Shown here in pieces: positions 11,060-41,902 of a stretch of DNA of 64,000 nucleotides. The stretch spans positions 1,860,001-1,924,000 of the forward strand of contig NZ_CAAHFH010000002.1 of assembly GCF_900890705.1 (NCBI RefSeq), given 5' to 3'. Under the pieces are notes generated by a model. It worked only from the letters and a program-made list of their open reading frames with translations. It made no database searches and was not told the origin of the DNA. The position numbers were made by a program, and so were the translations under genes. Position 1 is the first letter of the stretch, and each line of letters begins with the position of its first letter. The DNA is from Pontiella sulfatireligans (GTDB lineage: Bacteria; Verrucomicrobiota; Kiritimatiellia; Kiritimatiellales; Pontiellaceae).

Positions 11060-13132
11060 TTACAACCCCCAGTAGTTTTTGAGCATTGGCGCAATCACCA
11101 GCGAGATGATGGCCATGAGTTTCAACAGGATATTCAACGACGGTCCGGCGGTATCCTTGAAGGGGTCCCCCACCGTATCGCCGACCACCGCCGCCTTGTG
11201 CGCCTCGGAGCCCTTGCCCTGGCTAGCGCCGCATTCGATCATTTTCTTGGCATTGTCCCAAGCCCCGCCGGCATTCGACATGAAGATGGCCAGGACAACC
11301 CCCGAAGCCGTCACGCCAATCAGGGTTCCGGCCAGCATTTCAGGACCGCCGATAAACCCGACCAGAACGGGTGTCAGCACGGCAACCACTCCCGGCACAA
11401 CCATGCCTTTCAGCGCAGAGGCGGTGGAGATATCGACGCACTTTTTGTAGTCCGGCTCTTCGGTCTCTTTCAGGATGCCCGGTTTTTCGCGGAACTGGCG
11501 GCGGACTTCTTTAATCATGGCAAAAGCGGCCTCGCCAACGGCGTTCATGGCCATGGAGGAAAATAGATAAGGCAGCACCGCCCCCAGCAGCACGCCGGAA
11601 ATAACCTTCGCATTCATCAGGTCGATGGTTCCCACGCCAACCTGCTGCCGGTAGGCCGAAAACAGGATGATCGCCGTCAGGGCAGCCGAACCAATGGCAA
11701 ATCCCTTTCCGATGGCGGCGGTGGTGTTCCCTACGGCGTCAAGCTCATCGGTAATCTCCCGCACCGCCGGAGGAAACTCCGACATTTCGGCCAGGCCGCC
11801 GGCATTGTCCGCAATCGGGCCGTAAGCATCGACGGCCAGCTGGACGCCTAGCGTCATCAGCATGCCCAGCGCGGCAATGGCAATGCCGTAGAGCCCGGCC
11901 AAAGCCTCGCTGGAAAGGATGGCCGCCACAATAATCACAATCGGGGGAAAGGCCGAAACCATGCCGACGCCCATTCCAGTGATGAGGGTCGTGGCCGGAC
12001 CGGTCTCGCAGGCTTTCACGATCTTGTTCACCGGCTTGGTATCGGTGCCGGTATAGTATTCCGTAATCATCCCGATCAGCGTGCCGGCCACCATGCCAAG
12101 CACCGAGGCGAAGAACACATTGAGCCAGCCCACAGCCGCTTCACCCGCGCCGCCGCCCAAAAAGAAATAGCTGAGCAGGAAGGAGAACACGGCGGCAATG
12201 CCCGCCGCGCCAAAGGTTCCCTTGTTCAGGGCCGCTTGCGGCGACTGCCTTTCCTTCACGCGCACCAGCCCCACCCCGATCATCGCGGCAACGATGCCGG
12301 CCACCGCAAGCAGGAGGGGGAAGACCACCAGCTTCAGCCGATATGCATCGCTCCCGGCAATACTGACCCCGAGAACCATCGCGCCGATGATTGAGCCCAC
12401 ATAGGACTCGAACAAGTCCGCCCCCATCCCGGCCACATCACCAACATTGTCGCCCACGTTGTCGGCGATGGTGGCCGGATTCCGATGGTCGTCTTCGGGA
12501 ATTCCCGCCTCGACCTTTCCAACCAAATCCGCCCCAACATCAGCCGCCTTGGTGAAGATGCCGCCGCCCACCCGGGCAAACAAGGCCATCGAGCTCGCAC
12601 CCAGGCTGAATCCGGTAACAATCGGAAGAATCTGGTCGGCAAGGACTCCAACGGAGGAACCGAAAAACAGCCTCCCAAGAAAAAGAAGGACAAGAAAACC
12701 GAGCATGGACAACCCGACCACGCTCATGCCCATCACGCTGCCACCCGTGAACGCAACCTTCAGGGCGGGAATCAAGCCGCCTTGGGCGGCGTGGGTGGTG
12801 CGGGTATTGGCGGCGGTGGCCACCTTCATGCCGATGAATCCCGCCAGCGCGGAAGCCATCGCTCCCACCACGAACGCCACAGACTGGTATCTCAACGAAC
12901 CCTGGTTGGCGATGGCAAGGAAAGCGGCAACAATCAGAACAAAGGGAATCAGAACCTTGTATTCCCGAGTCAGGAACGCCATGGCTCCATCGGCCACGTA
13001 CCCGCCGATTTTTACGAGCTTGGGATTCTCGACCGGCTGCCCGAAAATCCACTTTGTCTTTATCGCCGCATAGCCCAAGGCGAGAAAACTTCCTCCCGCA
13101 ACGATTAACAATGTCCAACTGAATGTATCCAT
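11060..13132 (-). CDS. hppA: Membrane pyrophosphatase, probably K+-dependent and Na+-pumping
   Basis: A 690-residue integral membrane protein with about 16 hydrophobic segments. It couples hydrolysis of pyrophosphate to cation export. The substrate motif [20 protein letters not shown] and the loops [20 protein letters not shown] and [15 protein letters not shown] are intact. The [10 protein letters not shown] motif has Ala where K+-independent enzymes have Lys, so it is probably K+-dependent. Glu in [10 protein letters not shown] is at the position typical of Na+-transporting members; this assignment follows family rules and is an inference. It is divergent from a second pyrophosphatase and followed immediately by an unknown coupled gene. 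Confidence 0.95.
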
Positions 13133-13480: not shown

Positions 13481-15772
<2,292 letters not shown>

Positions 15773-29174: not shown

Positions 29175-31076
29175 ATGTACAAGTCTTTATACAAAGTGGT
29201 TGTAGTTGGAGGAGGCCATGCTGGATACGAAGCCGCGTTAGCCTCTGCGAGAATGGGAGTTGATACTCTATTAATAACTCTAAAAAAGGGACTTATAGGT
29301 AGACTACCATGTAACCCTGCTGTTGGAGGAATTGCAAAATCACACCTTGTTTCTGAACTGGACGCTCTTGGAGGAGAACTCGGACGCAACTCTGACTACA
29401 CCGGAATCCAATACCGCATGCTAAATACCCGAAAGGGACCAGCAGTGCAATCAAACCGGATTCAGTGCGACAAGGACTTATTCCCCCAACGAATCCAAGC
29501 AGTTCTCGCCATGCAGGACAATCTGGAAATGCTGGATGATATTGTAACGGCCATCCGGACAAAGAATGGAAAAATATGCGGAGTCACCTGTCGCTCCAGC
29601 GGAGATATTAATGCCGAATCCGTTGTAATATGCACAGGAACCTTTCTTCGTGGCCGAGTGCTTATCGGCATGAAAAGCATCAAGGAAGGACGCATGGGAG
29701 AAGAATCTGCTGAAGGTCTTTCCGCATCATTTGACCAATTTGGATTCGACCTAGGACGGCTTAAAACAGGCACCCCGCCCCGTATTCACAGAGATTCGGT
29801 GGATTATTCCAAAATGGAGAATCAGCCAGGGGATGATCCACCTCCCTTTTTCTCGCGAATGGCCCGCAAAGAATGGAAAATGTTCCACGTGGAACATGGA
29901 AACCCAGACCCAGAAGAGATGAAGCGCTTGTTCCACGTGGAACATAACGCTCTTCACCCATGGATGCCGGGCGCAGATCAGATTCCATGCTGGCTCACTC
30001 ACACGAATGAAAATACTCACCAAATAATAGCGGACAACCTCAGCAAAAGCGCAATGTATGGCGGAATGGTTGAAGGCACAGGCGTGCGCTACTGCCCCTC
30101 AATCGAGGATAAAATTGTTAAGTTTTCCGACCGCAACTCGCATCACGTCTTTATTGAACCTGAGGGGCGAAACAACATCCGCCTCTACCCCAACGGAACA
30201 TCCAACAGCCTTCCCGAGGACATTCAGGAGCAAATGGTCCGTTCAATTCACGGGCTTGAAAACGCTGAAATCCTCCGACCAGGCTATGCCATTGAGTATG
30301 ACTATTCCGATCCAACGCAGCTATTCCATACTCTGGAAACAAAACGAGTAGAAAACCTCTATTTTGCAGGCCAATTAAACGGGACAACTGGCTATGAGGA
30401 AGCCGCCGGACAAGGATTTATTGCCGGTGCCAACGCTGCGCTAAAGGTTTCAGGCCAAGACCCCCTAACTTTAAGCCGTAACGAAAGCTATATTGGCGTT
30501 TTAATCGATGATCTAGTTACCAAAGGTACGGATGAGCCATACCGCATGTTTACCTCGCGATCAGAACATCGCCTTACACTTCGTCAGGACAATACCTATT
30601 TCCGTTTGCTGGAAAAAACAAAACAGCTCGGTATTATCGACTCCAATGAAATAGGCCTTATTTCTCGGCAATGGAAAGAGATCGAAAAGGAAATCTCACG
30701 CCTCGAAAAAGTATTTCACGAAGGAAACTCTCTCGGCCAACTTCTCCGTCGCCCGGAATCTTCATATAAAACTTTGCCGCAGGAATCATCTTCCTTAGAT
30801 GAAGAAGTAATTAAGCAGGTTGAAATTGAAGTTAAATATGCTGGATACATTAAGCGGGAAAAAGAGCGTATTGAATCATCGAAAAAGCAAGAAAGTCAGT
30901 TAATACCACTCGATTTTGATTACGATGTGATTAATAGCATGCGTTTTGAAGCCCGTGAAAAACTGAAGAAAATAAAACCAGAAAACCTGGGCCAAGCTGC
31001 CCGCATATCGGGTGTAAATCCTTCCGACGTTTCCATTCTTGCTATGTGGCTTAAACGCCATATACAACGGAAATAG
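29175..31076 (+). CDS. mnmG: tRNA modification enzyme MnmG, carrying parS sites
   Basis: 633 residues from ATG 29175; a TTG at 29163 could add four residues. It is the FAD/NADH subunit that, with MnmE, makes 5-carboxymethylaminomethyl-uridine at tRNA wobble U34. Motifs are [20 protein letters not shown] (FAD) and [19 protein letters not shown], and the C-terminus is typical ([18 protein letters not shown]). Unusually, about 40 extra residues sit near residues 230-265, encoding FHVEH twice; these are the reading of two parS palindromes (29881-29896 and 29929-29944). The usual order resumes at [17 protein letters not shown]. mnmG is often near oriC. Confidence 0.95.
29881..29896. promoter_or_regulatory. 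parS chromosome-segregation site 1, inside mnmG
   Basis: The sequence TGTTCCACGTGGAACA is a perfect 16-bp palindrome identical to the ParB (Spo0J) binding site reported in Pseudomonas and close to the B. subtilis form. ParB binding seeds the segregation complex near oriC. The assignment rests on exact sequence identity to known parS. Confidence 0.9.
29929..29944. promoter_or_regulatory. parS chromosome-segregation site 2, inside mnmG
   Basis: A second perfect TGTTCCACGTGGAACA, 48 bases from the first measured start to start. The two sites encode the same peptide FHVEH in the same frame. Confidence 0.9.
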
Positions 31077-31548
31077 TGCCTTGACGATGTCTTAGATCGT
31101 CATTTCATTTCCCCGTATATTAATAGATTTTTCATCCCTACCATTAGATCCATGTCTCAACTTTGAGTTCATGGATTTATTTATCGAATCCCTCATTTAA
31201 ATCGAACTCATGACTAGGTTTTAGCGGGGCATCCTTTTGGCTCTAATTAATAATTTAAGCGAGGGTTTATTCTTACCATATAGTGGATTACAAATTTATC
31301 CTGAAATTTAGCATATAATGCTCAAGTATATTTTCGATGCCGAGATAAATGACGATAAAGTTGATCATATTAGCTACCTATTACCAAGTATGGCAGGATA
31401 AATAATGCTAGTGATTAGTCTGTAAACTATATTTCGTATAAATATATCGATATAAAAGGAGTTCCGTTGATCTTTCCGTTTTTTTAAGTATTTTGGAATG
31501 TGGACTTTCCGTATATACAGCGTGAGAACCCTAGCAGTGGAGATTAAA
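31077..31548. other. AT-rich gene-free stretch before the hydrogenase operon
   Basis: About 470 bases of low G+C with no supported gene on either strand. A hairpin, TGACGAT...ATCGTCA, at 31082-31102 just after mnmG could act as its terminator, though the T run is poor. The region up to 31548 is the likely hydrogenase promoter; no clear -10/-35 pair was fixed. Confidence 0.5.
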
Positions 31549-41299: not shown

Positions 41300-41902
41300 T
41301 AACAAGCCTCCTATTATATAGATATAGTTTATTTATAAATTCACTATTAGTATTGGTCTGTAGATAACCGCGGAAAACAGTACTTTTTTTCTGTAACCCC
41401 GTCACCCGTAAAAGTTTGAAAACATTAATAACCCTGTTGATAAACGGATCGTAAATACGGCGTTCTGTTCACAACTCCGAGTTATTAAATCCATCCTCAG
41501 AAACTCCACAGGTTACTAAGGTTTCATTAACAGCCCGTTAGGGTCGTATTTGCATTCGTCCTGATCAAATCCATCGGATTCTACGGAGCTGAATGCAGAT
41601 GAGTATTATTCCATGACGCACCGATTCTTCAAGCCAATTGGGGTTCTAATGGCATGAAATATTGAATAAAACTTCTAAGCCTAAGTTGGCCTCCAATAAA
41701 AAAGGTTCCTTCCCCGATTACGGGGAACGCTTAGCCGCTTCGCTGCCGTCGTTTCGCACCAACCTGACCGCGTATCCCTCGCGAAGCTCGGGTGAACCGT
41801 TACGATACCATTGACGATTTCCACTCCCTTGAAACGGGCTATGAACTAACAAAAAGCCGTCCCGGAAGGACGGCCTCAAAGAACCTACCGATGAAGGAAG
41901 CC
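41300..41902. other. Candidate chromosomal origin (oriC) between dnaA and dnaN
   Basis: A 603-base gap. The dnaN-proximal part, 41311-41350, is a strong AT-rich tract (a possible unwinding element). One-mismatch DnaA boxes (consensus TTATCCACA) occur on the minus strand at 41359-41367 (TTATCTACA) and 41435-41443 (TTATCAACA). A small hairpin TTCCCCG-ATTA-CGGGGAA is at 41710-41727. No perfect box cluster was found, so this is the best candidate, not a proof. Confidence 0.5.
41851..41875 (-). terminator. Rho-independent terminator of dnaA
   Basis: On the minus strand, GCCGTCC pairs with GGACGGC around a five-base loop and runs into TTTTT. It lies about 28 bases after the dnaA stop, so dnaA and dnaN are probably separate transcripts. 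Confidence 0.85.

Follow-up and report, generated by a model that had tools for sequence, protein, structure and literature searches.

The window considered here, by which the whole analysed stretch of 64,000 nucleotides is meant, carries an mnmG gene (gidA) with two identical and perfect copies of the 16-bp palindrome TGTTCCACGTGGAACA, placed 48 bp apart from start to start and both in frame within the mnmG open reading frame, where each is read as FHVEH (Table 1). This arrangement, which an earlier note on the same DNA had singled out, is confirmed; moreover, no third perfect copy exists in the genome to which the window belongs (7.4 Mb; 7,395,795 bases in 5 contigs), in which about 0.0017 would be expected assuming equal base frequencies. 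Near copies elsewhere in this genome amount to none with one mismatch and three with two mismatches. Within the window, the palindrome is matched three times at up to three mismatches, compared with 0.24 times on average, and never more than twice, in 100 shuffles. The 16-mer, which has a CACGTG core, is identical to parS2 and parS3 of Pseudomonas aeruginosa, and is described there as the most tightly bound parS, with the highest affinity (PMC4368675). The proposal of the earlier note that the palindrome is a ParB-binding site thus appears sound by analogy, the same 16-mer being a proven ParB site in that species.

Table 1. Positions in the window of the genes and sites under discussion
Feature	Position	Strand	Remarks
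mnmG (gidA), tRNA uridine-5-carboxymethylaminomethyl modification enzyme	29175..31076	+	Host gene of the sites, from start codon ATG to stop; TIGR00136, 771.8 bits (cut-off 524.85)
MnmG insert, residues 232-267	29868..29975	+	Holds both sites; gap in alignment to PDB 9hip; low-confidence loop
parS-type palindrome 1, TGTTCCACGTGGAACA	29881..29896	.	Read (M)FHVEH, MnmG residues 237-241
parS-type palindrome 2, identical TGTTCCACGTGGAACA	29929..29944	.	Read (L)FHVEH, MnmG residues 253-257
dnaA	41903..43285	-	TIGR00362 at G000:C2:1901936-1903261; PF00308, PF08299, PF11638

The MnmG proteins of known structure (PDB 9hip and 2zxh) belong to the same enzyme family over nearly the whole length, but are without the residues that hold the sites: residues 232-267 of the window's protein stand opposite 5 residues of PDB 9hip, and residues 229-262 opposite 8 residues of PDB 2zxh. 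The insert therefore comprises about 26-31 extra residues relative to these structures and not the approximately 40 given in the earlier note. An AlphaFold model, for which 39 aligned MnmG proteins served as input, has a mean pLDDT of 90.4 overall, with means of 72, 50, and 52 for the blocks of residues 231-240, 241-250, and 251-260, respectively. Because the model is confident and the blocks of the insert have a lower pLDDT, the latter is probably flexible, a loop on an enzyme that is otherwise ordinary; as far as a model can tell, the protein seems to tolerate it, as had been supposed. Elsewhere in the window, two adjacent genes for membrane pyrophosphatases are divergently oriented (11063-13132, minus strand, and 13481-15772, plus strand; PF03030, 881 and 863 bits).

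Distribution and reading frames of the sites

"Class" and "phylum" are used in the following as the kinship labels of the genome search. The class set consists of one mnmG locus per genome from 90 genomes, the window's own included; a second piece from G035 (L060), a truncated locus of G023 (L062), and a duplicate from G005 (L063) were left out. With up to two mismatches allowed, a site is present in the loop of 88 of these 90 loci, the exceptions being G034 and G129; with at most one mismatch the number is 85, and 76 loops contain a perfect site. The loops of G076, G191, and G029 hold 2-mismatch sites only. Two further genomes, G073 and G101, were added late and stand outside the counts of codons, frames, and loop lengths and outside the tree; each has two 1-mismatch sites in the loop, which brings the class to 90 of 92 loci with a loop site. 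Genomes lacking a usable MnmG match (G002, G004, G010, G014, G016, G018, G025, and G176) do not count towards the 92.

Class sites that deviate by one mismatch at the most, 142 in number, are read in three frames, as FHVE[HQ] (106 sites), CSTWN (20), or VPRGT (16), and in 15 loops more than one frame is used. When mapped onto a tree of MnmG (FastTree, 122 rows, with the loop excluded from the alignment and no bootstraps), the use made of the CSTWN and VPRGT frames changed on no fewer than four occasions, and the set of frames on no fewer than 14. As for the codons, 124 of 137 FHVE[HQP] motifs from class and non-class loci are written with all four parS codons, as compared to 4.2 expected from codon use in the remainder of the same genes, and TTC and GAA are each found in 137 of 137 motifs, against background shares of 0.42 and 0.52, counts which derive from related sequences and are not independent trials. 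The use of three frames, together with the fixed choice of codons, indicates that it is the DNA, and not the peptide, on which selection acts. Conservation of FHVEH or of the palindrome in related MnmG proteins, which the earlier note had named as a check, is therefore found, and it is found at the level of the DNA.

The loop segment, measurable in 75 of the 90 loci, is mostly longer where it contains more sites: it has 54 residues without a site (one genome), a median of 63 with one, 73 with two, and 110 with three (five genomes). The rise with site number is not strict, as the sole loop with four sites has 86 residues and is thus shorter than the median for three. The extra loop of MnmG seems to exist mainly to hold the sites.

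A perfect site is present in 54 of the 64 class genomes sampled. These genomes contain 101 perfect sites; the loop accounts for 78 of them and the rest of the mnmG locus for 18, the latter either in the same open frame or at most 0.7 kb from the mnmG frame, and the remaining 5 are in G176, a draft genome of the class in which MnmG was not found. There, they lie within 0.8 kb between two non-mnmG genes, in a repeat-rich stretch (L240:2722-3520). A cluster of sites without mnmG counts against a centromere seated in this gene and has lowered our confidence in that reading by a small step, from very high to slightly less so.

What the earlier note had described in one genome spans the class and other classes of the phylum, though not all of the phylum. 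Of the 194 genomes that were sampled from the phylum, 107 have a perfect site somewhere, whereas the pattern read backwards, used as a control, is matched in 2 of the 194. Outside the class, perfect sites occur in 53 of the 130 genomes sampled; for 42 of the 53 its location was examined (for G228 by coordinates only), and in 39 of the 42 at least one perfect site is inside mnmG, at the position of the loop in 37 and near the 3′ end of the gene in G074 and G077. In G061, G116, and G177 the perfect sites are on another contig than mnmG. The sites seen inside mnmG of non-class genomes are all in the FHVE frame. The common position in mnmG of several classes suggests, as judged from these sequences, an origin in an ancestor of the phylum with subsequent losses. 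The loop motifs FHVEQ, FHVEQ, FHVKQ, FHARQ, and FRMEQ, found at one and the same MnmG position in G067, G205, G086, G167, and G074, respectively (L191-L195), apparently represent stages of site decay.

ParB, SMC, and the replication origin

A search of 41 genomes with the ParB profile TIGR00180 yielded 26 genomes with a clear ParB, and 21 of these have a site in mnmG (at most one mismatch; in the case of G216 a perfect 14-base core). Of the five others, G129 has changed sites, G205 and G167 have the decayed motifs FHVEQ and FHARQ, and G061 and G116 have sites elsewhere. No mnmG site is present in any of the 15 genomes without clear ParB, and the 14-base core is nowhere to be found in any of these 15; they include G095, with two weak matches of 45 bits, which is below the cut-off. 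The association of ParB with the mnmG site has a Fisher p of 2.4e-7, a value without correction for descent. Thirteen of the 15 genomes lacking ParB fall into one clade, while the other two, G034 and G086, are single genomes placed apart, which by reading of the tree would amount to about three separate losses. SMC (TIGR02168) follows the same distribution, being above cut-off in all six site-bearing genomes examined for it and in none of the six examined that lack sites. G034, a draft genome that is approximately 90% complete, is devoid of sites, ParB, and SMC, although the genomes that surround it in the tree have two or three sites. In G024, SMC was matched as two adjacent pieces (G024:C1:774611-778143), as if by a frameshift or a sequencing error.

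The best ParB of the window's genome (171 bits) contains the ParB_N, HTH_ParB, and C-terminal dimerisation domains. Its residues were placed by motif and not by structure; by this placement, an arginine and a glycine match positions 173 and 201 of Caulobacter ParB, while alanine and lysine replace Ser172 and Arg204, which contact parS in Caulobacter. The gene (L006:1216-2151, minus strand) is on another contig than the sites, and the distance is likewise large in relatives, with 0.81 Mb in G024, 1.35 Mb in G032, and, as the nearest, 0.19 Mb in G104. A ParA-type motif (K.GG.GKT) was encountered neither within approximately 1.5 kb of ParB in 26 loci nor in the window. Considering the remote ParB and the lack of a ParA motif in its vicinity, a ParB-SMC system that operates without ParA is possible. 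Such systems, comprising ParB, parS, and SMC, are reported for Streptococcus pneumoniae and Staphylococcus aureus (PMC7333895), and the joint presence or absence of the three components is a likeness to them; in contrast to those ParA-less organisms, the search for ParA covered the surroundings of ParB and the window, and a gene elsewhere is possible.

The changed sites of G129 are accompanied by a changed ParB. The MnmG loop of this genome (L148) has six identical copies of GTTTCCACGTGGAAAC, all in one frame and read VSTWK[QR], and one canonical GTTTCACGTGAAAC is present elsewhere in the genome. The recognition helix of its ParB, GKKNRSSVAN, is one residue longer than that of the window's genome (GKARASVAN), and a tyrosine takes the place of a glutamine kept in the 25 other ParBs compared. 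These sequences are suggestive of a paired change of site and ParB, in a single genome.

A distance of 12 kb separates the two sites from dnaA in the window's genome, which suggests that the sites lie in the neighbourhood of the origin. The AT-rich gap of 0.4 kb behind mnmG (31077-31497), considered as a candidate for oriC, contains no DnaA box at up to one mismatch; the boxes of this quality nearest to dnaA, outside its reading frame, are at 41359 and 41435. As GC skew within the window is too noisy to place an origin, two single-contig relatives were sampled by 20 stretches of 20 kb each. In G024 the skew minimum is at 3.31-3.49 Mb, with mnmG at 3.344 Mb and dnaA at 3.338 Mb. In the other relative (G224:C1) the minimum is at 0.46-0.66 Mb and mnmG at 0.525 Mb, with dnaA at position 104; the three perfect sites are in the loop of mnmG (L174) and in the flank upstream of the gene, and mnmG is approximately 525 kb from dnaA. 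In both relatives the minimum brackets mnmG within 0.2 Mb, and the vicinity of mnmG to oriC, which the earlier note had brought forward in general terms, is borne out by GC skew in these two genomes. Origins that do not coincide with dnaA have been described in a Hi-C study of gut bacteria, in which clusters of parS were used for placement (PMC10197239).

A probable centromere inside mnmG and alternatives to it

One could regard the FHVEH repeats as a feature of the MnmG protein, for example as a loop that binds a metal or contacts tRNA, with the palindrome being a by-product of its codons. The histidines and the glutamate could indeed bind a metal, and the FHVE frame prevails, with 106 of the 142 class sites and all sites seen in mnmG outside the class. 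We nevertheless give this almost no credence and reject it on the grounds of frames and codons: of the 142 class sites, 36 are read in a different frame, as CSTWN or VPRGT, and the choice of codons is fixed far beyond usage. Further, the loop is of low confidence in the AlphaFold model, and there is no site where ParB is missing. Were the repeats to form hairpins in the mRNA and thereby control expression of mnmG, one would point to the 6-bp stem and 4-base loop which, by inspection, each site can form (UGUUCC-ACGU-GGAACA). The bases of that loop, however, are about as conserved as the stem (149, 141, 145, and 149 of 150 in frame 1, for sites preselected at up to three mismatches), one of the variants (GTA for GTG, 7 of 137) disrupts a pair of the stem, and perfect sites are also found outside the open frame, all of which disfavours a hairpin; nor would the joint distribution with ParB and SMC be predicted by it, and its probability is accordingly very low in our view.

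It is also conceivable that ParB binds the sites, but mainly for local control of mnmG or its neighbours and not for segregation. Their position inside a gene would agree with this, and in P. aeruginosa the promoters next to parS3 and parS4 are reported to be repressed (PMC5521831). Still, these are the sole perfect sites of the genome, they are near the origin in two relatives, and SMC is absent where they are absent, as expected of a site for segregation and SMC loading; for P. aeruginosa, unpublished data mentioned in PMC3909081 indicate no regulation of a gidA promoter region by ParA or ParB. Local control as the main role therefore seems quite improbable, albeit less so than the two previous possibilities. 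Finally, the palindrome might be the target of another DNA-binding protein with a similar site, such as one of the Noc type, since Noc, closely related to ParB, has a binding site that differs from parS (PMC7383237). The ParB of the window's genome, matched by motif, has Arg, Ala, Glu, and Gly at the positions of Gln173, Lys179, Lys184, and Arg201 of Noc and hence does not have the Noc set of residues, and binding of ParB to the 16-mer has been proven in another species; a Noc-type site is unsupported, and the chance of one is close to nil.

The two palindromes are thus very probably the parS of the chromosome, that is, a centromere for the loading of ParB, carried near the origin by a flexible loop of MnmG. 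Weighing against this are, besides G176, the decayed mnmG sites of two genomes that have ParB (G205 and G167), the perfect sites on contigs other than that of mnmG (G061, G116, and G177) or near its 3′ end (G074 and G077), the remoteness of ParB, the failure to find a ParA-type motif beside it in 26 loci, the alanine and lysine in place of two parS-contacting residues, and the fact that G034 and G086 are single genomes. The segregation centre built into a tRNA-modification gene, as the earlier note had phrased it, draws support from the conservation within the class, from the absence of sites alongside that of ParB and SMC, and from GC skew in relatives, all of which are comparisons of sequence. 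The origin-proximal centromere inside mnmG would, on the best reading, be a dual-coding element. ParB, encoded elsewhere in the genome, would nucleate on the two sites in mnmG, close as a CTP clamp, and slide outward from them; at the sites it would load SMC, whereby newly copied origins would be organised and separated. These steps, that is, loading of ParB, sliding of the CTP clamp, and recruitment of SMC, are taken from what is reported on ParB in other organisms (PMC7333895, PMC4368675, PMC4442127). The sites may have stayed where they were once captured because the loop costs the enzyme little. Capture presumably took place in an ancestor of the phylum and may have been followed by duplication, by shifts of frame, and, in one lineage, by a change of sequence together with ParB. 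A more far-reaching scenario, which we consider unlikely, would have such an ancestor capture the centromere in mnmG, with the carriage of ParB sites as the only role of the loop, the sites being free to duplicate, to change frame, and to change sequence along with ParB, and would have ParB on mnmG couple synthesis of the enzyme, and so translation, to segregation of the origin.

Occurrence of parS inside genes is already known. In P. aeruginosa, where parS forms an origin-proximal cluster that includes the 16-mer of the mnmG sites as parS2 and parS3, some parS are intragenic and were mutated with the amino acids left unchanged (PMC4368675), and those closest to oriC are in recF (PMC3909081). 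Unlike there, a single gene contains both perfect sites of the window's genome, and they occupy an additional loop of a conserved enzyme, a loop which is met again, together with its sites, through the class and in other classes; further, the class sites are in three frames, and ParB is not encoded nearby. In Bacillus subtilis, parS-359 is likewise in a coding gene, and ParB loads SMC at parS (PMC4442127), but the host gene is parB and not mnmG. Among the literature matches listed (titles, beginnings of abstracts, and passages), none names parS inside mnmG, although an earlier mention is possible, and no report was found among them of a centromere seated, through a class and in other classes, in a loop by which a conserved enzyme has been extended, or of a protein loop built around parS across a clade.

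If this is true, the segregation centre of a poorly studied group of bacteria would have been placed by sequence alone. The locus would show with exceptional clarity how, in nature, a DNA element evolves within a protein, given its three frames, its loops that are mostly longer with more sites, and a site and ParB that have apparently changed as a pair. In genomes such as G224, in which dnaA fails as a marker, mnmG with its sites could then indicate origin and centromere. Why a centromere persists for long in a gene, and whether transcription of that gene bears on the loading of ParB, would become amenable to experimentation. A further observation concerns another phylum: in a Cytophagales genome (L075:5925-5979), two perfect palindromes 39 bp apart are located directly upstream of the mnmG start and not within the gene.
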